A stretch of 64,000 nt of DNA from Isoetes taiwanensis (lineage: Eukaryota; Streptophyta; Lycopodiopsida; Isoetales; Isoetaceae), in contig JAJEKV010000030.1 in the NCBI GenBank assembly GCA_021234155.1, positions 4,572,050-4,636,049 of the forward strand, given 5' to 3'. The notes beneath the pieces were generated by a model that searched no databases, had not been told where the DNA came from, and saw only the letters and a program-made list of their open reading frames with translations. Positions 30,011-58,510 of this stretch are shown piece after piece (positions within the stretch are counted from its first letter, which is position 1; every line of letters starts with the position of its first letter). The translations under genes and the position numbers were made by a program.

Positions 30011-30385
30011 TGCTCATGTTCCCGATCCTGCTTTTGTAGAGGCTTCTTCATGCCCTCGGTTTGCAGATCTCAAGATTTCTCTTAGAAGTTCGATAAATCT
30101 AGAAGGCAAGATCCAAGTTCATATTTGCAATCCGGGTTCACCCGTCGGCTAGCTTCGACACCATCGGCTTGCTCCAATGCTCCCGGATAAATATGGCGAT
30201 TTCTCTCGTGTGTTTGACAAAGTCAAGGCGATAAACTCCCAAAGCATCGTCCATATGATTGTCCTATTGATTTGCGGCGGGGGGACGACTTGCATATATG
30301 GTCCGATATATGGTCTATCTCTGGCGAGTTGAAGGTTTTATGGATTATATTGAGGAGAATCTAGCGGTGGCTTCATTCGACATTC

Positions 30386-33019: not shown

Positions 33020-34773
33020 ATATATATGAGCATGGAGTTGATCTTTACAACAGCTGTTTTTATCCTGCCGAAGAAATCATTATGACAGCCATTAAGATTA
33101 GCTATTGCATCATAATGCATGTTCTTTGGAAGGATATTGCAATCTTGGTCTCCAATGTGTTTCATGGTAGCGAGTTGCAAGTGTTGGCATATGGTACAGA
33201 TAAGACTTCCCACACCTTCATGAACCTGGTTCATTATTCAGAAAATGGTTAGTAAATTCATTGGTCTATGTCTACACATTTTGTTTTTTAAGCAATTTGC
33301 TTTCCACCATATCTTTCTATTGGTGCTACATTGCTTTTTATCTCTCAGGAGATTAGAATTTCAACCATGTTATTTAATTAAAGATCTTGTTGAGCCTTCT
33401 TGGCTAGGTCCTCCGTGAATTTTTAATGAGCATGTGCCAGATTATTATCGAAATTATTATACTTATTCGCAATCCAGGTTTGTTAAATGCATCTAATAAA
33501 AGAGTATTTTTATGAAAGAGTCTTTAGGTCTAATAGAACTTCGTTATTAACTTGGTGAACTCCTTGATGTGGCTAGCATACTGCTAAATATTTAAAGATT
33601 CCATCATTGTGGTGCCACTTCCTTTGTTTCCTTCTTTTCTTTTCATTTTTAAATTTGTTGGAAAAGCGTCATGCCATCTCAAGATACTTGTCCAGAAATT
33701 TGTGTTGTTCACCTATTTAGTGGGAAAATGTCAGGTGTTTACCTGTGGCGTTGAGCTTGTTGCATAAGGCACAATATCAGCATGTGTTGTGGCTTAATTT
33801 CAAGCACTGGAACTCGGATAAACGTTATCCACTTTGATACCAAACTGTTTGATGCATTTTCTGGTAGTGCCTCTGATATACACTTCAGAATTTTCTGTTG
33901 TAGTGGAGGAGCACCATTGGTATAACACCTTTTGCCTCCAACAGCGAAATTTATGCATGCAGTCCATTCAGGCACAGATTCTAAATTTGCTTGCAGCACA
34001 ACCATTCGAAGTGTGGAACATAACCAATCATTCCAAGCCTTATTTGCGGATGCTGTTCCAGAACGTAGAATACCAGCTGTAATCTCAGCTGCTACACATT
34101 GCTTATTTCTTTCATCAACTGCTTTTGCTGCATCTATCAATGGTTCATGTAAGATATCTATCACGCCACTTCCAAATACTTGACAGAGGCATTTGAAAAA
34201 CTTTGCAAATATTGGAGAAAATTCTTTTCCTTCTACTTGTAAGTCCCAATTTTTATGAGGCCACTTCTTCATGTACCTCGGCATGTAAGAACCCAAAATA
34301 TCAGATAATTTTGATTGTTGATATTCATCATCAGAATAATGATGGTCAAGTGCAAGTTTTGTAATCGTGTTCTGGCCAAAGTCCTGCTTTAGAAGATCTC
34401 TAGTAGATAGTTCAACATTTATCTTAGTCTCACATGATGTCGGCAAGATGAAGAGCAATGAAGTAATTGAAATACGCCTCAAAGCAGGAATGTCACTTTC
34501 AAGATTGTTCAAGAAGTGTCCTGAAAATAAAGTTGAGTGGTCAATTGATCCGTTTGCAGTCAACAAATTTGAGTTAAATATAAATAAACCAGTGATCATG
34601 GCTCTTAGCAGTAAGAATACTATACCATTTTTGTAACTCTTGCCCATGTTGTTCTTTCTAGAGATGAAAATGTAATTGTACTCCTTTCCAAATTGATTTT
34701 CTAGATGTTTACGCATGCTTGGCCATCCCAAGCAGTTGGCATCAAAATGAAATACTTGCTCAGAAGAGGGCAT
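33020..34773 (-). pseudogene. PA200: Proteasome activator PA200 (PSME4) partial gene
   Basis: PA200 is the large HEAT-repeat cap of the nuclear 20S proteasome. On the minus strand an exon at 34,520-33,743 encodes GHFLNNLESDIPALRR, a WDLQVEGKEFSPIFAKFFK segment, KQCVAAEITAGILRSG, NDWLCSTLRMVVLQANLESV and EWTACINFAVGGK. These follow the mid-to-late region of plant PA200. It is preceded in frame by an exon-like piece (34,773-34,626, donor GTATAG) and followed by a GTAAAC donor. A further exon-like piece at 33,225-33,050 reads VHEGVGSLICTICQHLQ, matching the next segment, but its frame does not join directly. Only a few hundred of about 1,800 residues are visible, so this is a fragment, though the main exon is intact. 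Confidence 0.75.
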
Positions 34774-36028
34774 CCATTTAACGGAAAACCAAACTTATGT
34801 TGCAATCTAAACAAAATGTAAGCTAGAAACGCCGACTCTAAGGAGCAATCAAATGATGGCAACTACTGTGCGAATGGTCGCAGAGATGCAAAACCTTCTT
34901 ATGCTGGCTTTAGGGCAGAAAGAAATGAACTAAAATTTGGAGCGAAATTGTTCATAGCGATAGCCACCTGCCATAGACAAATCCGTCTCAAGATGTGGGA
35001 TGGGTAGGGAAGAAGCCGCAGGACTCCACTGCTCCAGCCGTATGAACCAACCATCTGCGCAACACAATGAGCCCTTTCAGAAAGAAAATTTCGCCCTAGA
35101 TAACGGACACGATAGCACATCAAGCACACAAAATAAAACGATGTACAGAGGGAAACAAAACAAAAAGGGCATAGGAAGGAAGCACCTATTAGAACGGCCT
35201 TGCGCAACCATAGCTTCCCGCCCGACAGTCTATTGTTAGACTTTGCTCCAGCAAAGAAACGGCCCTGGCGGCACCGCCCAGAGCGGCAGACATGCATGGA
35301 TTTGGCCCTCGAAATTTCCTAGCCCCAATGCTTGAAGCTTCTAGCTATGGTGGAACAGGGCGCCGTTGTTGCACGACTCCGTAGCCTGAAATTATAGGGC
35401 GGACTTAGAAGGCAGGCTAGGGCTTAAAAAAAACTGCATCATTTTCCTTTCTGCAGCAGGTGCGGCCAAATCCGGCCTGAACAAAACCTCAAGACCACAA
35501 ATACCATGATCTACATCAAAATCTTGAGGTAATTTGCCGGAGTTGCTTGGAGAGCAAGAAATCCTAGCTTTTATCCCCTTTTTTTTAAGTTTTTAAGTTA
35601 TTTTTTTAACACACGTGTCGTGCTGAAGCTTTTTCCTGAGATGGAAATATTCCATCAAAGAACAAATGAATCTGCTTTATATATGTTTAGAAAGCAGATT
35701 GGAGTATGGCAGTGAACGAAAAGAAATTTAAGAAAAAGCAAGTTAGCTGGGTCAAAGAAAACAAGGAAAATTCGGCTTCTACATGAAGAAGTCCAAGAGA
35801 TCATTTCTCTTCCTACAGAAAAAGTTCCATCGCTCAATGAATGGTGACATCGAGATTATTTTCTAAAATATTCCGAGCATTAATGATTTCGCTAGAAGAG
35901 TTAGACTCAAGGTAAGTCTTTTTTCACGCAATCCAAATCTCTTACCTATTCAAGAGCACAAGCTGCATGATAGTAATTTTGTCATGAATCTTGCCAGAAC
36001 TCTCCAAATTATATGGATAGTGTATTAC
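34774..36028. other. Non-coding stretch, no gene recognised
   Basis: Open frames on both strands (for example 35,297-34,899 minus) show no domain. T-runs occur near 35,580. Confidence 0.35.
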
Positions 36029-40606: not shown

Positions 40607-40660
40607 TCTATCTATCCCCCATATATTTATATTCTCATTATAGGTCGCTTCAAATCCCAA

Positions 40661-41543
40661 CCATCATTCAATTAAATTGGGATTATGTCTATTCCAAAAT
40701 CGCGCCGTATAAGCCTTTCATTGACCATTATATTGAATTAACCACACTTTTGCACTGTGTTCATTTTCGGGCTAGGAAGATGCATTTTATGTTGAAATGC
40801 AAAGGCATTCAAATATTCGATGCAAATAACCCATATTATGACAGAATGTTGGCAATAGAAAAAGTAGGAAATTGCTTATTAATTGCATATTCACGGACGA
40901 CAAACGAAATCTAAACATTGAAATTGTCGTGCTTTTACGAAATAAATAACGACAAGCAAGTTGCTACAAAACAGAGATTTTCAAATGGTTCAAATGTGGC
41001 GCGATTTGAACTGTCATAAATAACGCATTATAATAGAACATGAACTTAAAAACTAATCCAATTCATCGCCGACAGCGATGCAAAGATCCCCGAGATCCCG
41101 TCGATCATGAATAAACCATGCTCTGATTCCATATAAGATGGATTACAACATCAAAGGGATCGAGGATAGAAGCGGGCGAGATTCACATCAAGCCGCCCCG
41201 AAGTTCTATTTCTAGCTTCGCGGCACTGCGCAGAGGTCCGCATGGTTCATCTTGCGTAATAGAATGTGCCATAATAACAAGCGTATATGAGACCGAAGCC
41301 GATGGTTTGCCAATTTCATGCATACCTATTTATACACACCTAAATTATTGACGGTATATACATACAAATTATTGCAAGTATAGCAAACCATACACATAAT
41401 ATAAAAAAACAATACGCATACGTAACCAATAATGCCGATATAAGAACACAATATATATTCAAAACCTTTCGTAATGTATATTTCATATTCAAAACTTTTG
41501 GAAAGTGTATTTCTGTATACATATATATCAAAAAGTTCCCTTT
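40661..41543. other. Non-coding stretch, no gene recognised
   Basis: A/T-rich sequence with frequent stops. It lies downstream of the large minus-strand gene that ends at 41,544. Confidence 0.4.
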
Positions 41544-41759
41544 CTAGAACGATTTTCTCAAGGTCCCGTCAATTTCCCACCCCAGATCAAGATGCGGGTA
41601 TAGTGTTTGTATCTCTTCAACCGCTTTTTCCCGAAGCTATTTCATGCAAGACACTAACAAAGCGGGGCGGAAGTCATCTTTGTCAAAATCTGCAGGATGA
41701 TAGGATGGCGGATTCAATGACTGTGACTGATTGAAGCAACACTTTCACTACAAGGGATC

Positions 41760-42180
41760 GCCGACGTCCAACGGCGTCGCCGGCCGTCGATGAACGCCCG
41801 AATCGCCGCCGTTTATCAACGACATCGTCGTTCAACGACGATAACGTCGTTTCACGCCGTTCAACGACGGTCATCGTGGGCGACGATATTCGGCCCCCGC
41901 CTGCGTGGTATGGATACTACTGCCAAACCGGGAGCCTTCGTGTCAAACACGCCAACTAACGTCGTTCAACGACGTTTTGGCGACGTCGCTGGCCGTCATG
42001 CGTGGAAATGGGCAGTTGCCAAGCTGGCAGCCTGCGTGTCAAGACGCGCCAGCGTGCCGTCGTTGAACGACGTCGCACAACGCTGACGTGTCACGTCTGC
42101 CTGCGTGGCATGGTGCTGGTGCCAAGCTGGCCTGCCTGCGTGTCAAGACACGTCAGCTTAAACGTCGTTTAACGACGTCA
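41760..42180. repeat. CACTA left subterminal palindrome array
   Basis: Copies of GTCGTTCAACGACG and relatives at about 41,828, 41,857, 41,960, 42,059 and 42,162, with GACGTC words between them. Confidence 0.85.
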
Positions 42181-42190
42181 CACAGAGGAA

Positions 42191-42250
42191 TTTTTTTTTT
42201 TTTTTTTTTGCCAAATAAAAACCCTAACCCTAACCCTAACCCTAACCCTA
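42191..42250. repeat. Poly(T) plus (CCCTAA)5 telomere-like repeat
   Basis: A T19 run (42,191-42,209) is followed by CCCTAA units at 42,222-42,250. The unit is the six-base TTAGGG type, not the seven-base TTTAGGG type of most plants. Confidence 0.9.
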
Positions 42251-42328
42251 CATCCACGTTATAAGTGGATCCATCAAGAATTTCTTTGTTATTCTTATTT
42301 TTTGAGTGTTCTTCCCTATCTTGCTATA

Positions 42329-42622
42329 ATGGTCCGGCAGTTGAAGACCACCTTCGCGCGATATGTTCCTTCTAGCAGTAATCCTCCTCCTCCAAGGGAA
42401 GACAACTCCAGCAACCCCCCTGCTTCTCCCGCTGAGAACCCTCCCTTCACCATCGTGGCAAAGATGAGTGAAAAGGAGCTTCTGATTGCACTAACATCTG
42501 GCGTTCCATGCGGGGAACGACTGGTAGAATGGCTCACCGAGCCAAACAAAGAGAAAACGACATTAATGGTGCAGATAATGATGCAAATGGTTGCATCAAA
42601 CTGTCACAGCCTATCTGGTTGA
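42329..42622 (+). CDS. Small ORF within CACTA, unknown
   Basis: ATG at 42,329, 97 codons. It has a Pro/Ser-rich N-terminal half (SSSNPPPPRED) and a charged helical C-terminal half (MSEKELLIALTSGVPCGERL). It may be a remnant of the element's own first gene or a captured exon. No domain recognised. Confidence 0.35.
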   Translation: MVRQLKTTFARYVPSSSNPPPPREDNSSNPPASPAENPPFTIVAKMSEKELLIALTSGVPCGERLVEWLTEPNKEKTTLMVQIMMQMVASNCHSLSG

Positions 42623-42714
42623 CTAATGAGGCATTTCAAGTACATCATCTCTCCCATGAGTCGTATAATTAGATGATGCCATGTGGACTAAGTCCTTGTA
42701 TTGCATTGTAGTGT

Positions 42715-42900
42715 TTGAAGGCCAACATATTATCAAAGAAAGGGGAAGCTAGAACAAAGGCAGCGCTGGACGCGAGGTACGACGAAGCAAGTGGCAGCCA
42801 TAGTGCCAATAAGACTGGGTCTGGCGGTTATGGCTTTCTGGATAAGCTATTTGTAAGTATAAATTTGGTTTATAATGTAGGTTCTCGAGTTGAACACTAA
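42715..42900 (+). CDS. Small ORF within CACTA, possible second exon
   Basis: 61 codons, Lys/Ala/Gly-rich (MKANILSKKGEARTKAALDA). A GTAAG donor-like site lies near 42,853, so it could belong to a spliced transcript with the preceding ORF. Function unknown. Confidence 0.3.
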   Translation: MKANILSKKGEARTKAALDARYDEASGSHSANKTGSGGYGFLDKLFVSINLVYNVGSRVEH

Positions 42901-43189
42901 CATTAGTTTTGGTGCTCATTCTCACTAGGCGCCATTTGTCGGTCGCCCTTTGCTAAAGATGAACGCGAAAAGGGCCTTCAAACAAGGGCGATCATGCGCC
43001 ATCGCGTCACGCCACCGCTACAAGTGAAAGGGGGATGAAGTGTGTATCATTCATTAGATAATTATTTGTGACTACAATGAACTAATTGTTAGATACAATA
43101 TAATGCGTAAATGAAGACGAAGCCAATGAAGAAGAAGAAGAAGAGAGCAACAACTAAAGACTTAATATATTTTGTAATGTGCAAATTAC

Positions 43190-43575
43190 ATTGTGAAATA
43201 TATTAATTGAATTCAATTTAAATTTTTTATGCTTTGTTCTTATTATTTGTGATTTTTTTGTTATGTTAATTTTATGCTCGATTCTATTTTTTTATTCTTA
43301 GATTTATTAAACATTTAATTACATATTAAACAATAATGCTTATCTACCATTAATATAATTTAATCAATATTTGTTTCTATTTTTCGAATTTTTAAATTTT
43401 TAAATATTTATTCTCGATTTATTTTGTTCATATTTAATATTTATTAATACTATTAATATTATTGATAATATTAATATTAATAAATATTACTAAATATTTA
43501 TTTATATTAAATGCATATGAATATTAACTGTCCGTTAAATCATATTGAATAATATTAAATAAATATTTTTTTTTT
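43190..43575. repeat. A/T-rich low-complexity block in CACTA
   Basis: Almost pure A/T with ATTAATATTATT-type words and TAAATATT repeats. It immediately precedes the right palindrome array. Confidence 0.7.
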
Positions 43576-43589
43576 ATCAAAATTCTTTA

Positions 43590-44080
43590 ATCGTCGTTGA
43601 ACGACGTTGTCTGCGTGGCGCCACGTCGGCGACATCGTTGAACGGCGTTGTTCTGCGTATGCCAAAGCCGGGAAGCCACAAACCACGCCGGCGCGGTGTC
43701 GACCACGCCCGACTTGTCGTTGAACGACGTTTCACACGCGGCGCCCGCGTCGGCCTTCTGTATTGTAACGCCCGGACCGGACATGATGACGTGTACTTTT
43801 CGGCGTTGAACGGCGTTGCCGTCATCTGCCACGCCCGGCCCGGCGCTGGCGGACTGGCGGCAAAGTGTCGTCGTGGTACGACGATAATGCTAACGACGTT
43901 GAGAACGGCGTCATGTAATAAATAAGCTTAAAGACCCGCCGATTCGCGGCAGCGCATAGCGACTATATAAACGTCGTATATCGGCCCGACGTCGAAATAG
44001 GCGTGGATTTATCGACGTTTCGACGTCGATCATCGACGTGCAAACGACGTCTGGACGTCGTAATAGACGTCGTAACAGGG
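43590..44080. repeat. CACTA right subterminal palindrome array
   Basis: GTCGTTGAACGACG at about 43,592 and 43,717, GGCGTTGAACGGCG at 43,801, then a run of GACGTCG words between 43,985 and 44,080. Confidence 0.85.
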
Positions 44081-44565
44081 CTTTGGTTTTGTAGTGTTTA
44101 GAGCGTCATCATCCACAATGATCATGCCTTCCTTATCCTCAACACCTAGGGCATCCATCATGTTGCACAAGCATTTCACAAATATCTTTTACCTCGCATG
44201 TCGGTTCTTTAGGGTTTGTGAATGAAGCACATTTGCTTTGATCCCGGATGGACGCCCAATCTCTATTTAGCTCGGGCACTACGCTCAAAACATCCCCGTA
44301 TATTTCTATGCTCCATAGATGACCAAATTGCACTGCGAAAAGGATCAAGGCCTGGTCCAACATCTCCTTCAGATATAAGGGCACGGGTAAACATATTTGG
44401 TACGTGTCTCAAATGGTTGTTGCGCATACCATGACTTTTCAAACGTTGCTTTAGGTAACGTTCTACATAGCACACCATTCAAATCAAAGACCAGTATTTT
44501 TGGGGAAGCCAAATCATTTCTGTAAGGAGAACAATAACGTATGAGATAAAAGAAATGGAAAAGGA

Positions 44566-44730
44566 AAACGCGCCAGGCGCGATTTCATGAATGATGCATG
44601 TCAACATAATTTGAAAATATGATCTATAGAAAACTCAAAATCGCGCCACGCGCGATTTCATGAATGATGCATGTCAACATAATTTAAAAATATGATCTTC
44701 TAGAAAATTCTAAATCGCGCCAGGCGCGTT
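44566..44730. repeat. GCGCC palindromes in intron 3, tandemly duplicated
   Basis: Two tandem units of about 73 bases (palindrome plus CATGAATGATGCATGTCAAC and following text) and a third palindrome AATCGCGCCAGGCGCG at 44,712. They fill the inferred intron 44,520-44,792. Confidence 0.85.
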
Positions 44731-46899
44731 TTCTATATGCTTGTAGTTCGAAAAATGCATGGATATCAAACAAAGGAACATTGTTACGATACCTTTCTTC
44801 TTCTTCATTCCCCGTTGTGACTTCTTCCGTTGCATCCTTATTCTGAGTTGTCTCCGGTCTGATAGAAGCACCAACCACATCAGTTGACATCTGTACAGTG
44901 TGAACTATGCTTGATAGTTCATTACTCTTTACGCTAACCTGGCTAGTGTTTTCAGATTTGGAGTGTGCTTCATCATCATTCTTGTTATTATCATCATTCT
45001 TGTCATCTTCATCCCGTTCTAAAATTTCAGGGCCAAGGATGTTCACAGGGATGTCGATAGGTACTTGGTGATCTTCGGTTTCATCCATGATGTTGTGGCC
45101 AACGAATAACTTTCTCAAATCCTCCCGTTCCTTAAGCAAATCTGCAGGTATTTCGGCCTTAGAGCTAGAAGGTTTGTTTTTTGCACTGCCGATTGGTCCC
45201 CTAGGTGCTTCCTCTAGTACTTTCTCAAAGAAGAGGTCCAAGAAATTTTTGGCTCGATCATCGGAGACGACGCTCTGACATTTCCTTGCTAACTTCAAAG
45301 CTTCTCTACCGATGTAACCTCCAACGTGAAGTTCCCAGCAAGTTGTTCCCAATGGACAAAATGCTTCAATGAGGTACTGGGAAAGGTCCATAGAGAACCC
45401 GTTCTTGTTTAGCTTACCCTTATGTGAAGTTAGGAGCTCATACTTAATGTGGCCCACAAGAATTGGGTCGTCCTCGTTTTCATCCTCTTCTTCCTCTAAC
45501 TCTTCCACGACCTTGACACCCTTCCCCTTGTCTTCTTGCTCCAGATAGAAGACGTTTCGCATTATGCGTTCATCTAACTGATAGCACTGCCATGCTAGTT
45601 TGTCTCCATCTGGTTTTCCCTTGAGCCTTTCATATTCCTTATCATCCATCATGGCTATCATAATTATAAGCACATGAGAAATTTTACTTGCTGTGCTGAA
45701 GTCACTGTCCCTGTTTTCATCTATGAGGATCGCCTGTCGTATGACTTTCACGCATTCTAAGTCATTTGCAGCAGTTAGAGCATATGCATAGGACATGTCG
45801 GAGGGACATATAGTGACGATTGTGTAATTCATCTCCGTCGTGCAACCACTGCATATGTTGAAGAATATATTATAGTCATCAAGCGACCATCTGGTGTCTC
45901 GGCTATCAAGCACGAAGAGTGTGATATCATGGGGACCTGCACCCACTTCTGGCAAGGCACACTTGAAACCAATGGACACTTGATAAAAAAAAGTGGATTC
46001 CGTCTCCGGGGTCTGCTTCACCATCGCGACTTTTCATTTCAAGTCGGATGCAACTTTAGTGTGAATCCCACTGATCTTTGCAACGTTCTTCAACTTCTGC
46101 AGCTTGACAAAGTCCTTGGACCAAAATACATACTTCTTTAGGTCGTCGTTGGAGACGTTATACTTTTGCATGAGTCCTAACTCTGACAACGACCACTCTC
46201 CTGTAAGCCTTTGTAATTCCTCACCAACTGCCTTCTTGAGCACTCTCATATTTTTCAGCTCGTTGCATGCATCTTCGAATGATTCTATAGCCTTTGCTGC
46301 CGAGGTTTTCTTGTAAAGAATTTCCTTTCTGATTAACCTATTCAGAACTGAGATCAGTTCTTGATCGTCCAATCCCTGAGCCTTCCTCATCTCTGTTATA
46401 TGTATATCAAAAATTGATGTGTCAACAGGAGGAAATCTTCCTTGTGAATCTGGCAACTTCTTCTCGACATAGGCATCCCAGAATTCATTCCATTTCTCCC
46501 ATACTGGATCTGAAGCAAATACTATCTTGCAGGCATCCTTGGCACAGTTGGTTCCTCAGAAGCATCACCCTTTTCATCTCCTTTTTTTTTTCTTTGATCT
46601 GGTGCTCTTGGTTTTGTCCTGTATTATTGTCTGACTAAGTGTCCTCTCCAGCAACTTAAATTCAGCGCTTTTGGACTGGCCCTGTCTGGTCGGCATTGGC
46701 TTCCCATATTCAATCCACTGGTTCCGAGCATGCCGAAGTTGCTCTATATAGGGACTGCAAGGAGTAACCTTGTTAGCTTCATAATCGTAAATTAAATAAA
46801 TCCTTCTAGTTTAAAATCGACGCGAGCGATTTCATATTAAAAGCAAATGCGCACCGATGATTTTGCACCTTTCTGAAACGCTTCCTGGATTGGTAGCCG

Positions 46900-47165
46900 T
46901 TTCTCATCAAACAAGCAAATCGCGCCTGGCGCGATTTCATATTAGAATGCAGAATTGCCTAGACTGAGGAGACTTGGCTATTAGACGGATAGCCTTTTCT
47001 CCTGAGGGTAGGCAAATCCCGCGTGGGCGCGAAGCATTCTAACATGAAATCGCCAGCGCCGATTTGCTTGTTTAACGAAACTACAATCCAGAAGCGTTCT
47101 TCTCTTCGTAGGCAATCAAATCCGACGCGATTTGCTTTCTAATATGAAATCGCTCCAGGCGCTAT
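46900..47165. repeat. GCGCC palindromes in intron 2
   Basis: AATCGCGCCTGGCGCGATTT (46,918), then decayed relatives near 47,018, 47,045, 47,113 and 47,148, all inside the inferred intron 46,755-47,204. Confidence 0.85.
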
Positions 47166-48384
47166 TTGCAAATACGAAAACAAAACATAAGGGAAGAGAA
47201 TTACCTTGTGTATAAGAATGTTTTTCCCATGTCATTCAGAAGTGCGCTCTATTTCGGCTAGCTCGGCAGGTGTTGTTGAGCCGCCAGAACCGGCGGCTTA
47301 CGACAGTATACGACTTATAGAACAACCGATGTCCAAGATTCGTGGCCTTCTTGATCGTAACCTTCGGGCCTCTATTGAATGCTGGCCATCTATTATCATA
47401 AAATGTATGTCAGGATTGTCGATGAAGTCCTCCAGCTTGCTCCATATGATTACCTTCCTCGTTCTGGTATCGAACGGCACTACATCTGCAGGCATTGGCA
47501 CTTGCCCTGGATTTTCGATCATGTTGTTCACTATCTCTAAGGAGTTCTGCTTGTCATACCTTCGCTGATATAAATGGCTTTAGTGGACCTGAAAAGCCTA
47601 TCCACGGACCGGATGGGTGAAGCTTCGTGCCCGATGGATACTTGTCAGCATATTTCTTGAGCTTGCTCATCGCCTCCAACTGCCTGGCCTTGTCATCGTC
47701 ACTTGTAAGGCCCTCTGTCGCTTCTGTAATTTCCCTGCCTTTAGAGCTTTCTTCTTCCTTATCCTTCATTGCGCACGTAAAGTAGACACCGCCCCAGGGC
47801 CTCGTGCTAATGGCTCGTCGAGCAGTTGTAAGCCCCTCGCATATTCTTTTAGGAGTCAATGGCTCGCCAACTGTCCAGCCATATTTGAAGAGGTTATCGG
47901 CCATGTTGTCTGATCTTAATGCAGTCTCTTTAAAAGAGCTAGCACTGCATCGATTAATCTTCTTTAGACTCTTCTTATGTTTTTGGCCCACTTCAACTAG
48001 CAAAGAACGAAAAGAATCGTCTGTACCATGTAATAAGAATTCCCTGCTTCTTCATTTGATCAGTCTCTCTTACCCTTGACATGAATATGAGGTCTGTCTT
48101 CCCACCAGTTTTGAATATCTCCACATACCATTCTGACCCCTCTATAAGATCTTCTTCTGGACATGGAGGTTCTACCTGAGCCTTTATTATTCCGGATGTA
48201 TCTTCTAACGTCAATACATGCTGCAGGTCTGTAACAGTAACATCTTCATCTGTCCTTTGCTTTTTCTGGGCTGAAGAGGTATCGCCTTGCTTGGTTCTCC
48301 TTTTGATTGGCTTTTGTGATCCTGTAAAATTACAGCACATGGTTTAATCTGTTAATGCTAAAACATATGCTATGTCGAAATATA

Positions 48385-48510
48385 TGAGAAAAACGCGCTT
48401 GGCGCGATTTGAAAAGAGTACAGCAAGTTCATTTACTTATTTGGAGCTAACAAGAACGTGCTTGGCGCGATTTGAAAAGAATACATAGCAAGTTCATTTA
48501 CTTCAAATGC
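48385..48510. repeat. GCGCC palindromes in intron 1, tandemly duplicated
   Basis: Two tandem units, each with (A/G)CGCTTGGCGCGATTTG-type palindrome followed by AAAAGA and AGCAAGTTCATTTACTT. Confidence 0.85.
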
Positions 48511-48870
48511 TAAGGACACAACTAACTATAAAAAATACAACTTAAATTGTCGAATCTACATCTCAAGATATAGAAACTAATGTAATGCCTTATTCAACTG
48601 CAGCTTTGACACAAATAACTATAAACATCACAACTTAAAGAGTTGAATCTTCATCAGAGGACACAACAAACTATAAAAAACACAACTAGCTACTGAATAC
48701 TGTTTAGCCACACATTAAGCACACATTTTTGGGACATACGAACTCAAATATTAGAGGACACATGCTTCTTCTCGGATAATAACTCTATTATTACAGAAAA
48801 ACATCCTAAAAAAAACCTAACCAAAAAAAGGGACACAGAAATCAATTACAGAACAAAAACAGATCAATTA
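48511..48870 (-). other. Rest of intron 1
   Basis: A/T-rich with repeated ACTATAAAAAA(C/T)ACAACT words (48,520, 48,625 and 48,670). No coding sequence. Confidence 0.4.
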
Positions 48871-48999
48871 CCTGAGGCGCTTGCTGGAATTGTGCTTTCT
48901 GCTTGTTCAGAAACCTCCAGGCTTGGGATTTGTGCTTTGGGCTGTCGCCCACCTCTACCTCAACGCCTCGTGGCCGCTTTTGATCCTCTAGACGCCATA

Positions 49000-49813
49000 G
49001 AACTGCAAGTGCGGATAATATAAGACTGGGTTTTTGGTTTAAACTTATATGTATGCATTCATAATCTAGGCCGTCAGATTTACAACCGTAAATTCAAATT
49101 CGCGTCCTTTTTAATTTATACCGCCTTAATTAACCGCACGTCCCGCTCATTTACAAATTTAAATTGTGTTTTTCTTTTTAGTGCAATTTCAAGATAACAA
49201 TTAATTATTAATTTCAAGAAACGCATATGTGGCAATCTACTACCACCTAATCGGCCACCTACTATCGAGAGCGCCAAGATCATTCCTACTATCGAGGCCC
49301 AAGAACAATCGACTATCGAGCCCAAGATCCGCTCTACAACGCCTTCAATCTCATTCGATCGAGCCGCCTTCAATCCCATTCGATGTCTGGCTGAACTATG
49401 GTGAGTGTGATTCCATTCAATGCATTCTCTTGTTCTCTATTTTTGTCCTCTATTTTTCCAATGCATTCTGGTTCTTTATCAGTAACGGAGAAGAATGCTA
49501 TCTTTTAACAAAGAAACTTGAAGCCCGAGTAGGCTTATGTAAAATCAAGATCCGAATCCAAGTTCATGTGTCATGGTGTTCCTCTTGGAAACAGTTTAGA
49601 AGATTTCCATTATAAACCTGCAATTATGAAGATGAGGCTCTTCCAAGAAGACATCCCTATGGCGTACAATTGGTGAAAGCGTGGGCACATTTGTAGCATG
49701 GCCAAAAGAACGTCTGAAAAAGGTATTTATATTACGATATTCAAAAAAAAAAATGAATATATCATGATGTGGCTTTGATGTTGTGAATTTTGAATTCTTT
49801 GATGTTGTGAATT
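49000..49813. other. 5' flank of the multi-domain gene
   Basis: No recognised exon. An open frame at 49,229-49,615 lacks features. A 24-base unit with GATGTTGTGAATTTTGAATTC is tandemly duplicated near 49,777-49,822, next to a foldback. Confidence 0.35.
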
Positions 49814-49929
49814 TTGAATTCTTTGATGGTCTTTAGCCAGTCATATCAACCCCATGAAACTACACATTAATGAAAATATGTAGTTTCTTGGGGTTGGTCA
49901 TACTGGCTAGAGGGCATCAAAGGATTCAA
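49814..49929. repeat. 116-bp foldback
   Basis: Left arm TTTGATGGTCTTTAGCCAGT and right arm ACTGGCTAGAGGGCATCAAA are inverted copies. Pairing continues through GAAACTACA near the loop, giving about 50-bp arms with some mismatches. Confidence 0.8.
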
Positions 49930-49984
49930 TGTTTTCGACATTGCATATAAAAAAACATAATAAACTAATGACATAAAAGTATAG

Positions 49985-50075
49985 TGCAAAATTGCGCCAG
50001 GCGCGAGTTTGTATTCATATTCCAAAAAAGTATATGTACATTTCTTCTTCGCAAAATGCGCCAGCGCCAATTCTT
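49985..50075. repeat. GCGCC palindromes 3' of the small ORF
   Basis: TTGCGCCAGGCGCGAG at 49,991 and ATGCGCCAGCGCCAAT at 50,057. Confidence 0.8.
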
Positions 50076-50082
50076 TCTATCT

Positions 50083-50502
50083 CTACAATATGTCACATAG
50101 GCCCACTTCATCGGCCCAATACCGCCAAAAGTCCCACCTGAACCACTCTGATATGACAGGATCCTCATCTTCCCTGCGAATGTCGAGTCTCCAAACCAGA
50201 GTGTTGTATCGATCCTTGATACTATAAATCAAATCCTCGTACTTATTTGTTGGCATGAGCCTTACTAAGAGCATGAGGAGCCGCATATGTCCAGAGATGC
50301 GATGGAAGTGTTCCCATGGCCCCTGATACAGACTGTCTAATGGATTCTCCAACTCTCTTTGAACATTTTGAACAGCACAATCAAGTAATATCTTGTACAG
50401 GGTCCAGCGTTGATTGTCGTCCAGGGGAAGTGTATTTGAACTAGAACCAGCCAGTGTATTTGAACTAGGAGCAGCCAGTGTATATTCATAAGGAAAATCC
50501 AT
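50083..50502 (-). CDS. Uncharacterised 139-aa ORF amid GCGCC palindromes
   Basis: ATG at 50,502 in a favourable context (GCCATGG) and stop at 50,083, without breaks. The N-terminus has a short internal duplication (SSNTLAGSSSNTL). The remainder is rich in Trp, Arg, Asp and Glu (WRLDIRREDED, WFRWDFWRYW) and looks like a compact helical protein. No family recognised. It lies about 1.1 kb upstream of the multi-domain gene in the same orientation and shares its palindromes, so it may be another exon or gene of the same unit. Confidence 0.45.
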   Translation of the reverse strand: MDFPYEYTLAAPSSNTLAGSSSNTLPLDDNQRWTLYKILLDCAVQNVQRELENPLDSLYQGPWEHFHRISGHMRLLMLLVRLMPTNKYEDLIYSIKDRYNTLVWRLDIRREDEDPVISEWFRWDFWRYWADEVGLCDIL

Positions 50503-50579
50503 GGCACTAGAACGAGAGAAATTAAGTAATTAGCAAATGATATATTACTCTCCACATAAAACGATTCTGAACATACATA

Positions 50580-50765
50580 ATTCAAAACGCGCCAGGCGCG
50601 TTTGCTTTGTTTTTTGCACAGATCTATTTCACACGCGCCTGGCGCGATTTGTATAGAGCCGTATGAAATAGAAAAGCCAAACTAAAAACGCGCCTGGCGC
50701 GCTTTGATTAACCTAGTGGAAAATCGGAACCCAAAAATAGAAATGCGCCAGGCACGATTTCTCCC
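50580..50765. repeat. GCGCC palindromes 5' of the small ORF
   Basis: AACGCGCCAGGCGCG (50,586), ACGCGCCTGGCGCGAT (50,633), ACGCGCCTGGCGCG (50,689) and ATGCGCCAGGCACGAT (50,743). Confidence 0.85.
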
Positions 50766-50929
50766 ATTCTAACATATTATTCTAACGTAATGCGTAATGC
50801 ACGCGAGAATCTGAGAATGCACGCGAATGCGTAATGCACGAAATTCAAAATATGAAGCCAATGAATATGAAGGCAGTAGGAATATAATAGAATAGAATGA
50901 AGGCAGATAGAGCAGATATATAATAATAA

Positions 50930-51300
50930 TACTCCTTGTTTAGTTCAATATTTAGTTCATTGTTTTAGTTCATTATTTAGAGCAGATAGAGGAAGAGCTA
51001 GTGAAATAGATAGAATAAGAGCAGATACAGCAAAATCATATAAGCAAGATCATAGAGCAGATAGATCATAGAGCAGATAGATCATAGATCATAGAGCAGA
51101 TAGATCATAGAGCAGATAGATCATAGATCATAGATCATAGATCATAGAGCAAGATCATAGAGCAGATAGATCATAGATCATTATTTACTTCATTATTTTA
51201 GATCATTAATTAGAACAGATAGAGGAAGAGCTAGTGAAATAGAATAAGAGCAGATCATATAGGCAAGATCACAGAACAAGATCATAGAGCAGGATCTATA
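50930..51300. repeat. Low-complexity AGAGCAGATAGATCATAG repeats
   Basis: Irregular runs of GAGCAGATAGATCATA and ATCATAG units, with TTTAGTTCATTATTT variants at both ends. Confidence 0.8.
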
Positions 51301-52050
51301 TATGAAGGTGCTAGGGCAGTAGAAGTCCTAGGTGTTTAGGGCTGATGCATGTAAAAGTCTAAGCCAGAAAACACTCCCCTTGATTAAACCTGAAGCTCAT
51401 ATACTACTTTAAGTAAAGAACAGGAAATACTAACCTATTTGTGTTCTCAGTGCCGAAATTGAGCCTTTGCCTTTGAGCCGAAACCAAAAAATCGAAAACC
51501 AAAGTTGATTTGATTCGAGAAGCCAATAGCAGATGATTTGAGCCTTAAGAAGCCGAGAACAAGCAAACCGAGAAGCCGAGAAGCCGAGAAGCTTTAACAC
51601 AAAAACTAAAAACCAGAAAACTTTGTTATTCAAAGCCAGAGAGATTGTAGAGAGCCGAAAAGCCAAAAAAGCCAGAGACATTGTATAGAGCCTACAAACC
51701 TTTGAGCCGAAAACACCTTTGAGCCGAAAACCCTAAAGCAGATGATTGTAGAAGCCGAAAAGCTCGAAAACGCAGATAAAAGCAGATAAAAAGCAGATAG
51801 AAGCCGAGTTTAAAGCATATAGAAGCCGAGTTTAAAGCAATGTAGTTACGGAATGCCCGAATTGGAAGCGAAGCGAAGCGCTGAATTAGCCCGAATTTAA
51901 AAGTTCGAAAGTGAGAGAAAGCAGTTCGAAAACGAATGCTAACTTCAAATAATAACTGCCTTCAAAATTTCGTACCGCGCAATCATCACTGCCACGAAAA
52001 TTTATTACAAAGATTTTTTGTTTTAAGGACCGTGACTTTAAAAGTTATGA
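51301..52050. other. Non-coding stretch with GAAGCCGA words
   Basis: Repeated AGAAGCCGAGAAGC and GAGCCGAAAA words (51,540-51,840). No gene recognised. It separates the two divergent coding blocks. Confidence 0.4.
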
Positions 52051-52054
52051 GTTA

Positions 52055-52290
52055 ATAGTTAAGTTAGTTGTTAGTTATAAGTTAATAGTTAATAGTTAAT
52101 AGTTAATAGTTAAGTTATAAGTTAATAGTTAAGTTAGTGACCTTAAAACTAACCTTAAAACTTAGTTCTAACCTTAAAACTTTTAACCTACAATAACTTT
52201 CCAACCTTAAAATTTCTAACCTATAATAACCTATAATAAACTTCTTAACCTTAAAACTGCTAACCTATAATTAATAACCTTAAAAGTTGT
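52055..52290. repeat. GTTAATAGTTAA and ACCTTAAAACT repeats
   Basis: Seven or so GTTAATA units, then six or more ACCTTAAAA units. Both are imperfect tandem repeats. Confidence 0.8.
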
Positions 52291-52455
52291 TGCTAAGGTT
52301 ATTATAGGATAAATAACTTGGGGAATCCCATTATATAAATAGAATGATCAAATAGAATAAGACATATATGAGGCTTTCATTTATGAACATGTTAGTGAGA
52401 GGTTATTTGGATATGCTAACTTACTATATGTTTTTATGCATTCTAGGTCAATGAC

Positions 52456-55362
52456 ATGCAAAATGCTAAAAAAATAGCCCCCAATGATACTAATCAAGGC
52501 AAGGAAAAATCCCCAACTAATGAACATGATGGCCAAGGAAAGGAAAAGACTCCAAATGATGTTGATGATGGCAAAGGAAAGGAAAAGACCTCAAATGAAA
52601 AGGATGATGCCAAAGGAAAGGAAATTGTACTTTATACTCGGGTCGATTGGAAAAACAAAAAGGTCAAGATCCTGCATGCATGCAACAGAGAGGCAGTAGG
52701 AGAAGCGATTATTGTTCTAGCAGATCCTATCAATGCAGTGAATGATGAACAATCTCAAAATTATATGACAATTGGAAGGAAAAGGGTTCAGGCAAACAAG
52801 AATGCCTAGCTTGTGTGAAGCAACTAGAGGTTCCAACTATTGTTGCATGGCCTAGGGACAAGATTTCAACCGGAGGGGAACTACACGTTTCCTATAGATG
52901 TAGAACCATTGTCAACAATGTTCACACAAGCAGGTAGCAAGAGGCCACTTCCAACTTTCAAACATTATCCCACCAAAAGATGCAAGTCGATTATGATTGT
53001 TCTCCGGCTATGATGAAGGTTAGAGGAGGTGAATGTTGTTGGGCTTCTTGTGTTAGAATGTTCACAATAGAGGAGTTGGTGGGAGCAAGAGCTACATATC
53101 GTGAACATAAGTGTGATAGCAGGAGGAATTTCATGTACACCATATTTGGCTATGCAATTTAGGATGAAAGATCAAAGAAGAAAAGATTCCCATTGAATGG
53201 AAAGTGGATATGTTCAAAAGCATGGATGGCTATACATGGAATTCCAACCTCTTCTTGGCACAAACCGGCAAAAAAGAGACATGAAAATGGTAGTAAAATT
53301 GCATTGCATGGGAACACCGGCACGGTAAGGCCTACCTCAAGAACTATAGCTGCAAAGGAAATATTTGAAAGATATGTGGATTTCAATGCGTAAAACATGC
53401 CACATAAGAGTAAGAAGGATGAACAGGGTAGAGTTATTGTTGAAAAGAGATTGCCATCCCATTGTACCCGAAGAGCATATTAGAGGAAATAAATGCATTG
53501 CCGGAACTTGGAGTGGCCTCTATATCCCAGCCCGTTTTAGTAGGCTATGGAATAAGCATTTCAAGCATGTGACCATAGCAACTTCAAACAACTTTGCCAA
53601 GTGCAATTTATGTGCTAAGTTGAAGGAGACACTAGATAAGACTGTGCAACCAAGTCTAAGGGCAAAGATAAGGGAACATATGAAGGACCATATGACAGAT
53701 CAACTATCATGTAGATCAATTTATTGGATGTGGAGGACCTTACTGCAATGGAACCTAATAACTATCTATGTATTATACATGATAAAATGGACCAACAGAA
53801 GACTTGTCTTCCACAATTCAAGTACATTCCTAAGTCATGTGGAAGATCATACCCTTTGCTTGATTTCAATGATCAAGGGCAATATTGCATGGGCGATCTC
53901 GCACCTATTATGGCCATTTCAGTTTAGAGTTGTGGAGTGATGGTCCAGATTTTCACATTGGGAGTATCATGAGGTGTTTAAGAAACTATGAGAAGGGTTA
54001 CAATGGTCACCTACAGGGATCCTACAGACTAGCCGTGCACTACATAGTGCATTGTTGGATGGAACCCTAATAGTATTGAAAAGTTTAGCAAGGCAAGATT
54101 TAGGAGGAATGGACCTAATGAACATGTTGGAGCTTCAACATCTCGTGCTAAACCTCGAGATCTGCCCGTGAAAGCTCCTCTTGCAACTAGATAATTGTGC
54201 TTTGGTCAAAATAAGAACAGTGGATGTTTTCTTTCCTATCCTACTTAACAAACCGTGGGTATTTTTGAAAGAGTCAATTTGGGGTTCTTAATGCCCTGAC
54301 ATACTCATGAGGATGTGGATGCATTGTTTGGAAAATATAGTCATGTATTGAGACAATGACGAGCTACCAACTTTCCCGTGCTATTGGAAATATTTCATGG
54401 ATGTACAAATCCATCTCCTATAGCATCTATCATAGAAGAAGTGCCCCATTGGAAGAGTTTTGTGGATGGTTATGCTCTCGACATGGAAGGTCATTCTAGA
54501 CCTCTTCAATTCACTTTTTGGGTGAGAGAAGGGATTCCAATCATGCAATGGAAAATGAGACCTTCGGAGGAGAAGTGGAGAGGTGGGGCGAAATTTGGCA
54601 ATGGGGATGCAAATGGCAAGCCTATGATACCTCCCCGGTCAACCAAAAGCTCTAAAACCAACCTAAGAAGTCAAGCAATTGGGATTGACTAAGGATGGCA
54701 TCAATGACTACATCAAGCATTGGCAAACTAATTCAGATGAGACTAATCGTGCATTGATAGATTATTGGAAGAAGGTGATCAACTTGTTGGATGAGGTAGA
54801 CACATCCTCGAAGAGCTGAAAGAAGGGTGGTTCCCTAAAAGTAAGTGGAAAACATTAGGCGGTGTCGACGAAGATGATGGTACCATTAGTAGCATTATGA
54901 AGGCATATGCTCCTCCTCAACTGATAAACACTATGTTGGTCCTAAGAAGGATAGGCCAAAATATTTAGGCATGGATTGTTATGAACCTTCTCTTGACGTG
55001 GAGTGCCACCAATTTGTAGTAGTAAAACCAAATAGATCTAGAGACCTATCCAAAGGTGGTTGGGATACACTATCTCGGATATTTGCAAAGAAGAAGGTGA
55101 TGTTAACTTCAATAAGGTGCGATGGAATGGTGGTGTCCAAAGACATCGGTTGAGTAATGTCACCGATAAAGAAAGATATTCAGATTGTTGGACAAAGAGG
55201 TGGAGGAGAAATCCAAGTGATCCTGATCTTTGGCTAGACATTGAAACCGTATTGTACTCGTGGACTCCAAAAACTATTCCTAGTAAAACAGCGAGAGTTA
55301 CAATACCTCAGGATGTAAGGAATAAGGTTCTCATATCCTTGGGGATGCTAGTGGTTCAATGA
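52456..55362 (+). pseudogene. Decayed transposase-like gene of an uncharacterised plant family
   Basis: The first ORF (52,456-52,809) encodes a Lys/Asp-rich repetitive N-terminus (GKEKTPNDVDDGKGKEKT) and then EAIIVLADP-type text. Shifted frames continue with HKCDSRRNF, GNTGTVRPTSRTIAAKEIFE, then NNYLCIIHDKMDQQKTCLP (53,750), QLDN (54,188), FERVNLGFL (54,266), HTHEDVDALFGKYSHVLRQ (54,300), SIIEEVPHWKSFVDGYALD (54,430) and WVREGIPIMQWKMRPSEEKW (54,520), ending at 55,362. The D...D...E/D arrangement suggests a DDE-type transposase. I know this sequence type only as uncharacterised proteins abundant in algae and seed-free plants. At least ten breaks show it is dead. Confidence 0.6.
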
Positions 55363-56194
55363 AAAACAGTTACTATGTATCTTTTCTACAGTTAATAAAA
55401 GTTGTGTACTACTTGAGTTCCATGATATATGATTTTGTAATTTGAAGTTAAGGTGTGAATTTATATTCCCGTGTGTGATTATATGTTAACGTCTATTCTA
55501 GTCTAAGGGCAACAAAGTTACTAAAAAAGTGAATTTAACAAAGTTACTAAAAAAGTGCAATATAAAATTTATCCCAAAATTAAGACATAATCCCAATTTA
55601 ATTGAATGATAGTTTCCCCGCATATTCTTTTGCATATGCCAATCCAAGGGTTCAGAAGAATACACCTCACCCCATCCAAAAACACTACCATACTTGCAAA
55701 AAATATCCCTTATCAAACCCCAAATGCCACAAGCTTGAACTTTAATACGCTTCACTCCCCTTGCACAGGTCTCGCTATTTATCGCGATCTCACTATCCCT
55801 GGCCGTTGGATTTAAAATGGTCATAACATGGAACTTGGGGCATCTCAAGATTATGACGATAATCTCCTAGAGACTATCACATTAATCTTCAGAATATTAC
55901 AATACTCCAATCTCACAGTTATTGCTTTGCCATGTGATTACCTTCGTCATTACCTCCGTCTATCACCCCTTGTTTGCTATGTTCCGACAGCTCCGTCCAT
56001 TACTCCCCTCCCCTATTTGCTCTGTTTCATCTCTGTTTCAATGGCATGTGATGCTCTCCTCTGCTCGGCCATGGCAAAATGCATCAATTCGGCAATGGCA
56101 CCGGAAGTACCTGAGCTGCATTTTTCTCGGGTATGGCAATGCATCCTTCGAGCCATTTTGGCCATGGCCATATTGCTCGTGAATTTTATTCCCA
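55363..56194. other. Non-coding stretch, no gene recognised
   Basis: An AAAGTTACTAAAAAAGTG word is tandemly duplicated at 55,515-55,556. A plus-strand open frame at 55,828-56,229 has no recognised domain and its tail reads into the palindrome array. Confidence 0.35.
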
Positions 56195-56653: not shown

Positions 56654-58311
56654 TCATGAGATATCAACGGATCTCTCACAACTATTTGTAGCTTTCCTTA
56701 TGTCATTGATAAGCATTGTTCTATTTTGGAATCTTATTAACACATCTTCCATCCACTTTGAAAGATGAGTTTCATTAAGTCCAACATTTGAATCCTTATA
56801 GAAATCAAAACATTTAGCATTGTCATTAGGGTTAGGGCAATCTGCTCCTTCATGATCATTCCATGTTCCTTCATGTTGCAAGCCTACCCAGCTAGATAGC
56901 CAAGTAAATACATACTGGCCAACTCCAGCATACTCAAGCCATCCTTTAGGAAACATTTCAAGGATAGAGCCTCCCCTTTGCATGAAGATCATGTTGGTGA
57001 CTTGTGCACCATGGACACTAAGGAGGATATCAGTGTGACGCATGAGGTTCACCTGGATTGAAATATCAACAAGTAGTAAATAAAAATAATCATTAGATAC
57101 TACATTGTATATGCAATAATAAAAAGAGGTACTATGAGTTTGCTAGAAAGAAAAGAAAAGACAAGTACCTGTTGACAGAAAGTAAGATTTGCAACATGGA
57201 CAACTTGGAGGTTGCAACCTTGGATCTTGTGACATTGATCTTGCACAACACTTGCAACAGCAGAGACATTCTTGAAAGCCCTCGTGCGAGATCTAGCCAA
57301 TATAGTAATATTAAATCCATCCCTAGTATTCCTTTGCCCTACTTCTAAGTTACAAAGCTTATAACTTTCACACCTAATGAAATCAAATATCTTATTCATT
57401 TTAGGTATTGACACACTTCCCAAACCTCTCCTGTGAACCAGAGCATGTTCAAAACAAGCTGGCTTATCATCATACTGCATCAAATCAGGCTTTAATTCTT
57501 GGCCGAAGGCGGCAATGACAACTTTTGACACCCAATCTCCAATATGGCCATAGATTTCACCCCAATGGTATAATATGAGATGATCTGGAACAGAAAAGTT
57601 GTTCCTTAGTCTCCAATCTACTAGACTGATGAGAGCAGTCAAGCCATGCCATGGATTAACATAATCCCAGTAATTATCCACCACAAAGGTTAATCCAGGC
57701 ACAAAGACTGCATTATGGGGGAGATAATCTCGCCATGCAAAGGCATAGCTATTTTTGGTGCCATCTGTGGTGTGGCTGCCCTGAAGGCACAGGATTCTTC
57801 CATGGGAAGAATTTGAAGGAAATTCAAACTCTTCTGGAGAATCATATCTGCTCTTTCTGTACAGGCTGCTCATAAACCATGTGTTGTTGGCATCTGTGAG
57901 GCCTGATGCCCGCGTATCTTTCAAAGGAAAAAAGGTTGTAGATTGGATCAGTCTCTGCTCCACAGATTCAACCCTCTGTGCCAGCTCTGATGTGTTTGAT
58001 GCATGGCTCTGATGATCCTGCAGCCATGTTGCAGCCTGCTTCAGGCAATCTGATGATCCTCTGCTCTTTACGCATTGCGCGATTTTTGCCACAACAGTAT
58101 CTGGCTCGTCTGTGCCTGTAGAATTGGACTGCATGTAGAACTGCTGCAGCATTCTTCCTCTGTGCCATGCCTGGCCCAAATCTCCCCACTTCAATTCTGA
58201 TACTCCCACATAATTCAGCTTGTTCATGCATACCATCAACACCTGAACGATTATCAATACGCCCAACAACGCTGTTGTATATCCAATCTTCTTGCTTTTG
58301 CATCTGCCCAT
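56654..58311 (-). CDS. GT61-family glycosyltransferase (DUF563), 2 exons
   Basis: Exon 1 is 58,311-57,169 and exon 2 is 57,052-56,654, joined in frame by a GT-AG intron of 116 bp (513 aa). A short cytoplasmic tail (MGRCKSKK) precedes one hydrophobic anchor (IGYTTALLGVLIIVQVLMVC), the type II layout of Golgi enzymes. A stem region follows, then the catalytic domain with DYVNPWHGLTALISLVDWR, ILYHWGEIYGHIGDW, GFNITILARSRTRAF and, in exon 2, LLSVHGAQVTNMIFMQRGG with ILEMFPKGW, the GT61 signature. Plant GT61 enzymes transfer xylose, arabinose or GlcNAc to N-glycans or wall polymers; the acceptor cannot be told from sequence. There are several N-glycosylation sequons. No stops or shifts are seen. 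Confidence 0.87.
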
Positions 58312-58510
58312 TTCACTTCCCGAAAATGCCCACGATTATTGGCCATCTTATACTATTTTTTCGATCTCGAAACCTGTGGCCTGGATTTTGCCACGTCCCA
58401 CCCCATTTATCGAGCTGCATGTGATGGCTTGAAATTAAGAACATGCCCACCCATGCTCCCTAACATGTCAAGTCCCTAATTGTAGGTATCGCACAATCCC
58501 AAATCTTAGT
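58312..58510 (-). promoter_or_regulatory. Proximal upstream region of GT61
   Basis: No strong TATA box was recognised within 200 bases of the ATG. The region is bounded upstream by the tandem duplication. Confidence 0.2.

Follow-up and report, generated by a model that had tools for sequence, protein, structure and literature searches.

A multi-copy inverted-repeat transposon of Isoetes taiwanensis carries an accessory gene with a NIF/FCP1 domain and a palindrome clustered in its non-coding DNA

The 64,000-nucleotide stretch of the Isoetes taiwanensis genome analyzed here (hereafter the window; assembly GCA_021234155.1, contig JAJEKV010000030.1, positions 4,572,050 to 4,636,049) contains a DNA transposon bounded by terminal inverted repeats (TIRs). 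The element is present in many copies and carries two genes on opposite strands: a transposase-like gene with a DUF7869 part, fragmented in every copy read, and a four-exon accessory gene that encodes a likely ParB/DGQHR-type domain, a region with suggestive methyltransferase-like features, and a NIF/FCP1 phosphatase-like domain. An initial annotation of this DNA had described the accessory gene as a bacterial-type DNA-modification module captured by a plant gene or by a mobile element; it is the mobile-element option that the TIRs, the target duplications, and the transposase-like gene bear out. Apart from the palindromes, the features of the element are as follows (window coordinates).

40659..55614, no strand: complete TIR DNA transposon of 14,956 bp, a later CACTA-type insertion counted in; TIRs at both ends, flanks TCCC/TCCC
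40659..40689, plus: terminal inverted repeat AACCATCATTCAATTAAATTGGGATTATGTC, from comparison of copies and flanks
41529..41749, minus: exon 4, remaining phosphatase-like domain; end approximate, usual stop lost in the window copy
41750..44096, minus: CACTA-type insertion in exon 4, CACTACAA...TTGTAGTG, with a 3-bp AAA duplication
44097..44519, minus: exon 4, first part of the NIF/FCP1 phosphatase-like domain
44793..46754, minus: exon 3, helical region, then methyltransferase-like region (DSRD, motif-I-like HVGGYIG) and acidic tail; stops in the window copy
47205..48321, minus: exon 2, ParB/DGQHR-like domain with IIDGQHSIEA; frameshifted in the window copy
48872..48998, minus: exon 1, RG-rich start; in-frame stop in the window copy, GT donor at 48871
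50083..50529, minus: small open frame, 148 amino acids; open in several other copies, no family, omega (the dN/dS ratio) about 1 or above
53350..53937, plus: piece of the transposase-like gene, FAKCNLC region
54360..54689, plus: piece of the DUF7869 part of the transposase-like gene, assigned via its counterpart in copy C1049
55584..55614, minus: terminal inverted repeat, opposite end; reads AACTATC..., one mismatch

The TIRs of the window copy are 31 bp long, with one mismatch between the two ends, and perfect TIRs bound four further copies of the same subfamily (A; C1049, C1031, C1089, and C1076), in which the element measures 12.5-13.9 kb. A copy of a second subfamily (B) has a perfect left TIR and a right TIR with one mismatch. 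Among copies compared together with their flanks, the right terminus falls at one identical place in 11 of 11, and the last 30 bp of that end show a single difference, in one subfamily B copy. Target duplications of 4 bp are exact in four of six copies (TCCC in the window, ACCA in C1049, AAGA in C1089, AAAG in C1076) and off by one base in the other two, being displaced in C1031 and reading GTTA/GCTA in the subfamily B copy. Part of exon 3 has at least 105 matches in the window's own assembly of 1,658,258,908 bases, a lower bound—as are all copy numbers given here—from 101 scored candidates among 3,918 found at first look, with a few copies giving two rows; residues 1-411 are free of stops in 20 of the 105 rows, the window row included. 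A profile scan identifies DUF7869 (PF25273) in the C1049 counterpart of the transposase-like gene (E 1.4e-24, 87.1 bits against a cut-off of 26), and we infer that this gene acts as the transposase. No paper on DUF7869 turned up in a literature search, and we could assign the element to no named superfamily. A host gene was considered as the identity of the accessory gene and rejected, since the latter is multi-copy and bounded by TIRs.

The accessory gene is genuine, and its window copy is dead. Reading the sequence confirmed the four minus-strand blocks described initially and their in-phase GT-AG junctions, which recur in copy C1089, together with the motifs that had been picked out (FMIIDGQHSIEA, CPLGTTCWELHVGGYIGREA, DSRD, FDLNGVLC, IWSSMEHRN, DQSKC, and IVDDDALK). 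That description is confirmed in part; what it had left unreported is the damage to the gene. Exons 1 and 3 contain stops, exons 2 and 4 contain frameshifts, and a 2,347-bp insertion, which we take to belong to the CACTA superfamily, splits the phosphatase domain. The insertion has a high CpG content and holds a telomere-like (CCCTAA)n run at 42220-42250. Long open frames with an identical domain order exist in relatives elsewhere in this genome, and the architecture is therefore not a product of chance. The most open copy read through, C1089, has exons 3 and 4 entirely open and exon 2 mostly so, with one stop in exon 1 and another early in exon 2; none of the copies read was fully intact. Relatives of this kind, which the initial annotation had proposed seeking in other plants, were found within this genome and none outside it, in stitched-query searches of a protein collection including lycophyte and seed-plant proteins that were word-based (7,986 and 7,990 word-sharing candidates scored) and may miss distant relatives. 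Pieces of exon 3 had no relative in collections of viral contigs or genome contigs, searches of the PDB by sequence (single and profile) returned nothing relevant, and an Rfam scan gave no match. Bacterial or viral contamination was also considered and ruled out by the lack of exon 3 relatives in the contig collections, by the introns, and by an adjoining GT61 frame with plant relatives.

The three domain assignments differ in strength. The NIF/FCP1 assignment made initially was right and, judged by its profile match, is certain: in C1089, PF03031 is matched at E 2.3e-17 (63.6 bits against a cut-off of 21.8) over profile positions 1-158 of 160, and the stitched window query matches it at E 6.5e-5. 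VFDLNGV occupies the catalytic place in all 13 sources that hold the motif, among 21 (a few may be duplicates, and a D variant was allowed), so that DLNG is found where NIF/FCP1 phosphatases have the catalytic signature DxDx(T/V).

A ParB/DGQHR-type domain in exon 2 is likely, as had been proposed, on matches that fall below curated cut-offs. The window piece matches the ParB-like family phrog_1033 (0.0091), DUF6551 (0.0097), and DGQHR_dnd_1 (0.16), each below its cut-off; the subfamily B piece matches DndB at 5.5e-4 over residues 43-118 (19.5 bits against a curated cut-off of 29.1) and phrog_1033 at 0.055. All of the ParB/DGQHR-family matches cover or adjoin DGQHS, in which the accessory protein has Ser at the place of the Arg of DGQHR. 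The C1089 piece gave none of these matches in Pfam, PHROGs, or NCBIfam, the last returning only unrelated matches at chance level. Of 21 sources, 5 show the motif IIDGQHS(I/V)EA; the 10 short sources from exon 3, at the least, do not extend to it, and exon 2 of some others is frameshifted.

A methyltransferase fold in exon 3 is suggestive only. No methyltransferase family was matched in Pfam, PHROGs, or NCBIfam. An hhalign profile-profile comparison with 16 proteins (15 phage proteins, one a fragment, and Escherichia coli YhdJ) did align in register with the proposed motif I, at E 0.021, a score that 4 of 200 shuffles equalled; using 12 family members gave E 0.06, equalled by 5 of 120. The motif-I half alone was reached by 0 of 200 shuffles and then 5 of 120, and the half containing DSRG by 24 of 200 and 9 of 120. 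Structure prediction, which had been suggested as a check on exon 3, lent the fold no support, two models reaching predicted local distance difference test (pLDDT) values of 35 and 33, too poor for use. The absence of the catalytic DPPY, noted initially, is confirmed throughout: motif IV, (D/N/S)PP(Y/F/W), is missing from 21 of 21 sources (19 distinct copies, two loci being counted twice), and its place is taken by DSRG, DSRD, or DSCG. The methyltransferase-like domain would therefore be at best a non-catalytic relative, and an active methyltransferase is rejected on the same absence in 19 of 19 copies.

Selection was assessed between C1089, for subfamily A, and one subfamily B copy, from nonsynonymous and synonymous divergence (dN and dS). 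Omega is 0.05 in the N part of exon 2 (dN 0.112, dS 2.455; 159 codons), 0.04 in the ParB part (dN 0.079, dS 2.147; 119 codons), 0.07 in the N half of the methyltransferase-like region (dN 0.148, dS 2.160; 164 codons), and 0.10 in the NIF part (dN 0.095, dS 0.946; 90 codons). The helical and motif-I parts have dN of 0.139 and 0.166 with saturated dS, and the acidic tail is weakly constrained (omega 0.69). These values show strong purifying selection on the predicted accessory protein between the two subfamilies, despite its lost DPPY and its DLNG. Across exons 2-3 the subfamilies are 72-76% identical, with synonymous sites saturated, against 86.5% on the transposase side for C1049 (3,167 bp) and 78-91% for pieces of C1089. 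The element therefore looks modular, with the accessory genes of two old lineages apparently sharing a more recent transposase module. The comparison of subfamilies A and B (L056, L042, L043) points to an exchange of modules between element lineages. The small open frame is open in C1049, C1076, C1027, and subfamily B, with changes fairly even across codon positions and transversions exceeding transitions; the 50083-50529 frame would be either diversifying or else non-coding as read in this frame.

The element also carries a 21-bp palindrome, AAATCGCGCCWGGCGCGATTT, which was sought with the pattern AAATCGCGCC[AT]GGCGCGATTT at up to 5 mismatches of 21. Sites in the window copy include the following.

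44565..44585, no strand: near-copy in intron 3, with a second from about 44712
46917..46937, no strand: exact palindrome AAATCGCGCCTGGCGCGATTT in intron 2
48389..48485, no strand: two near-copies in intron 1
49989..50710, no strand: four near-copies around the small open frame, with cores near 49994, 50589, 50635, and 50690

Each of six element copies holds 12-18 near-copies (C1049, 17; C1031, 18; C1089, 15; C1076, 13; the window copy and the B copy, 12 each). Neither the remaining 49,044 bp of the window nor some 75 kb of right flanking sequence contains one; a Markov control gave a mean of 0.0 over 20 runs. Across the genome the exact palindrome occurs 613 times, and its reversed control 0 times. 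In the six copies counted, the palindromes cluster in the non-coding DNA of the side that bears the accessory gene: in C1089 and C1049 every one lies right of 4.8 kb, in the introns, around the small frame, or near the 3' end, and the B copy has its own in the corresponding three introns and close to the small frame. In 11 of 11 copies there is also a half-site, GGCGCGATTT, some 38 bp short of the right terminus.

The palindromes extend to other elements with the same ends. Twenty places were sampled among the first 50 of the 613 listed, on contigs absent from the exon 3 match list. Thirteen lie within the sequence of the main element (1,359-1,501 of 1,501 bp covered, the ends not being examined there), and the other seven fall into two further sequence groups (L062, L067, L071, L076; L072, L073, L074), where the stretch retrieved for each contains one perfect 31-bp TIR; their TIR and palindromes are identical to those of the main element and their interiors unlike it. 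One of the seven could be closed as a short element: it measures 1,616 bp, with four substitutions in its left TIR, a perfect right TIR, a TAAA duplication, and three palindromes. Compared with the proteins of the main element it gave no convincing match (best E 0.005 over 22 residues), and beyond the ends and palindromes the two elements share one 93-bp stretch, at 71%, around palindromes. The 1.5-kb stretch that holds most of this short element contains one open frame of 122 amino acids, with no identified family.

The two sides of the element also differ in CpG decay, and this contrast is firm among the copies compared. On the transposase side (positions 1-3171 of C1089), CpG has changed to TG or CA in 31 of 104 comparisons, against 12 of 408 for the GpC control (odds 14, p 1e-14); in the rest of the element the counts are 174 of 2,096 and 230 of 3,274 (odds 1.2, p 0.09). 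The ratio of observed to expected CpG, taken from three copies, is 0.21-0.28 over the first 3.3 kb; past that point it is 0.79-0.86, or 0.67-0.75 when the palindromes are excluded. The B copy has a likewise low left side, plus low values at 12-14 kb.

It is possible, then, that the accessory protein recognizes the palindromes and controls or protects the element in the manner of an anti-silencing factor; we favor this reading tentatively, at slightly under an even chance. A constrained protein, a likely ParB-type domain, a TIR-linked palindrome, and a CpG contrast that changes where the palindrome side begins together point to such a self-recognizing factor. The ParB/DGQHR-like and helical parts would bind the palindromes, as ParB binds parS, and this binding would hold the regulatory half of the element open and keep the element expressed; the methyltransferase-like part might bind DNA or S-adenosylmethionine without methylating, and the NIF part might touch RNA polymerase II or chromatin. 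A fuller version is doubtful: that the protein loads on parS-like palindromes of the element and its short relatives and shields that half from host DNA methylation, the dead methyltransferase-like part and the NIF part serving as effectors, and protein and motif both being unrelated to those of VANDAL elements.

Several observations weigh against a self-recognizing protective factor. The window outside the element has an observed/expected CpG ratio of 0.68, close to that of the palindrome side, and this resemblance to the surroundings weakens the argument from protection: the palindrome side need not be specially protected, and the transposase side may be the unusual one. Specific CpG protection of the palindromes was looked for and not seen, GpC being kept as well as CpG (0.910 and 0.917). 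The CpG counts have a shared ancestry and lack independence; of the nine copies used for comparison, just four reach across the left side. The ParB matches lie below curated cut-offs, and unrelated families score alike in relatives (NCBIfam aminotransferases, 0.046-0.17). Saturated dS makes the omegas rough, just one B copy was compared, and within subfamily A omega spreads from 0 to more than 2 by region and copy, frameshifted copies included; the small open frame is without purifying selection. Finally, the transposase, rather than the accessory protein, could bind the palindromes.

This last point leads to the strongest alternative, itself rather unlikely, in which the palindromes are sites for the transposase or a cofactor and the accessory protein aids transposition itself, for example by bridging sites. 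Other elements with the same TIR keep the palindromes, as would be expected of sites for mobilization in cis, and the half-site near the right terminus is consistent with this. Transposase sites usually cluster beneath the termini at both ends, however, whereas the left 4.8 kb of C1089 and C1049 have no palindromes, the sites of these copies lying in introns, around the small open frame, and near the 3' end. Improbable, in turn, is that the palindromes serve as enhancers (intronic or promoter), as splicing signals, or as hairpins, with the ParB/NIF protein acting elsewhere, for example on RNA polymerase II; such a role would suit their placement, which in both subfamilies takes in each of the three introns and the surroundings of the small open frame, but the 1,616-bp element has three of them without a convincing protein match. 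That a host plant gene was swept up by the transposon and is functionless for it accords with the ordinary GT-AG introns and with the NIF-type genes that plant genomes carry; it is very improbable, given that the gene has the same position in both subfamilies, under strong constraint, and that the word-limited searches of a protein collection including lycophytes and seed plants returned no homolog. The captured bacterial module that modifies DNA, as first proposed, has a parallel in phage fusions of ParB-type and N6/N4 methyltransferase domains (in the available part of PMC12704722) and is scarcely credible with DPPY absent from 19 of 19 copies and no significant methyltransferase similarity.

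Elsewhere in the window, a GT61 glycosyltransferase frame (57103-58335, minus) has its best named relatives in Diphasiastrum, at 47% identity across 67% of the query, and in Selaginella, and a long open frame at 33742-34794 (minus) matches the PSME4 HEAT repeats at 4.7e-4, slightly under cut-off. A frame at 30365-31972 (plus) encodes a reverse transcriptase, RNase H, and chromodomain, and is presumably a chromovirus-type Ty3 retrotransposon.

Among known systems, the phage fusions of ParB-type and N6/N4 methyltransferase domains resemble the accessory protein in combining ParB-type and methyltransferase-like domains in one protein (the available part of PMC12704722 leaves their order unstated); the present protein differs in lacking DPPY, in having a NIF domain as well, and in being carried by a eukaryotic transposon. 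The available part of that source makes no mention of plant, moss, lycophyte, or phosphatase, and a term search of PMC12695648 finds none of ParB, moss, lycophyte, land plants, Physcomitr, or ferns. With the DndB/DGQHR family (PF14072, TIGR04172), which has a ParB-like fold, the protein shares the FMIIDGQHS stretch and the DndB match of subfamily B; it differs in the Ser for Arg, in its sub-cut-off score, and in residing on a plant transposon instead of a phosphorothioation locus. It resembles the SCP-type NIF/FCP1 phosphatases (PF03031) in the near full-length profile match of C1089, and differs from them in having DLNG rather than DxDx(T/V).

To our knowledge, few self-encoded answers are known to how plant transposons escape silencing. 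VANDAL21 of Arabidopsis, a TIR DNA transposon, reportedly has one in VANC, an anti-silencing protein that is an accessory gene product and not a transposase. VANDAL elements are Mutator-like, with 9-bp duplications; the Mutator-like transposase and 9-bp duplications are not found in the present element, whose duplications are 4 bp long and which carries a DUF7869 gene, a palindrome, and a ParB/NIF-type protein. If the proposed reading is true, a ParB-like domain would be at work on mobile DNA in a eukaryote. The case rests on a constrained accessory protein, a sharply defined palindrome (sampled copies all lying in or beside one TIR group), a short relative that keeps the ends and palindromes, and a CpG-decay boundary. 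Like VANDAL21, this is a TIR transposon with a non-transposase accessory gene and a short motif clustered in its own non-coding DNA, and it offers a testable case of silencing escape in a lineage far from Arabidopsis.

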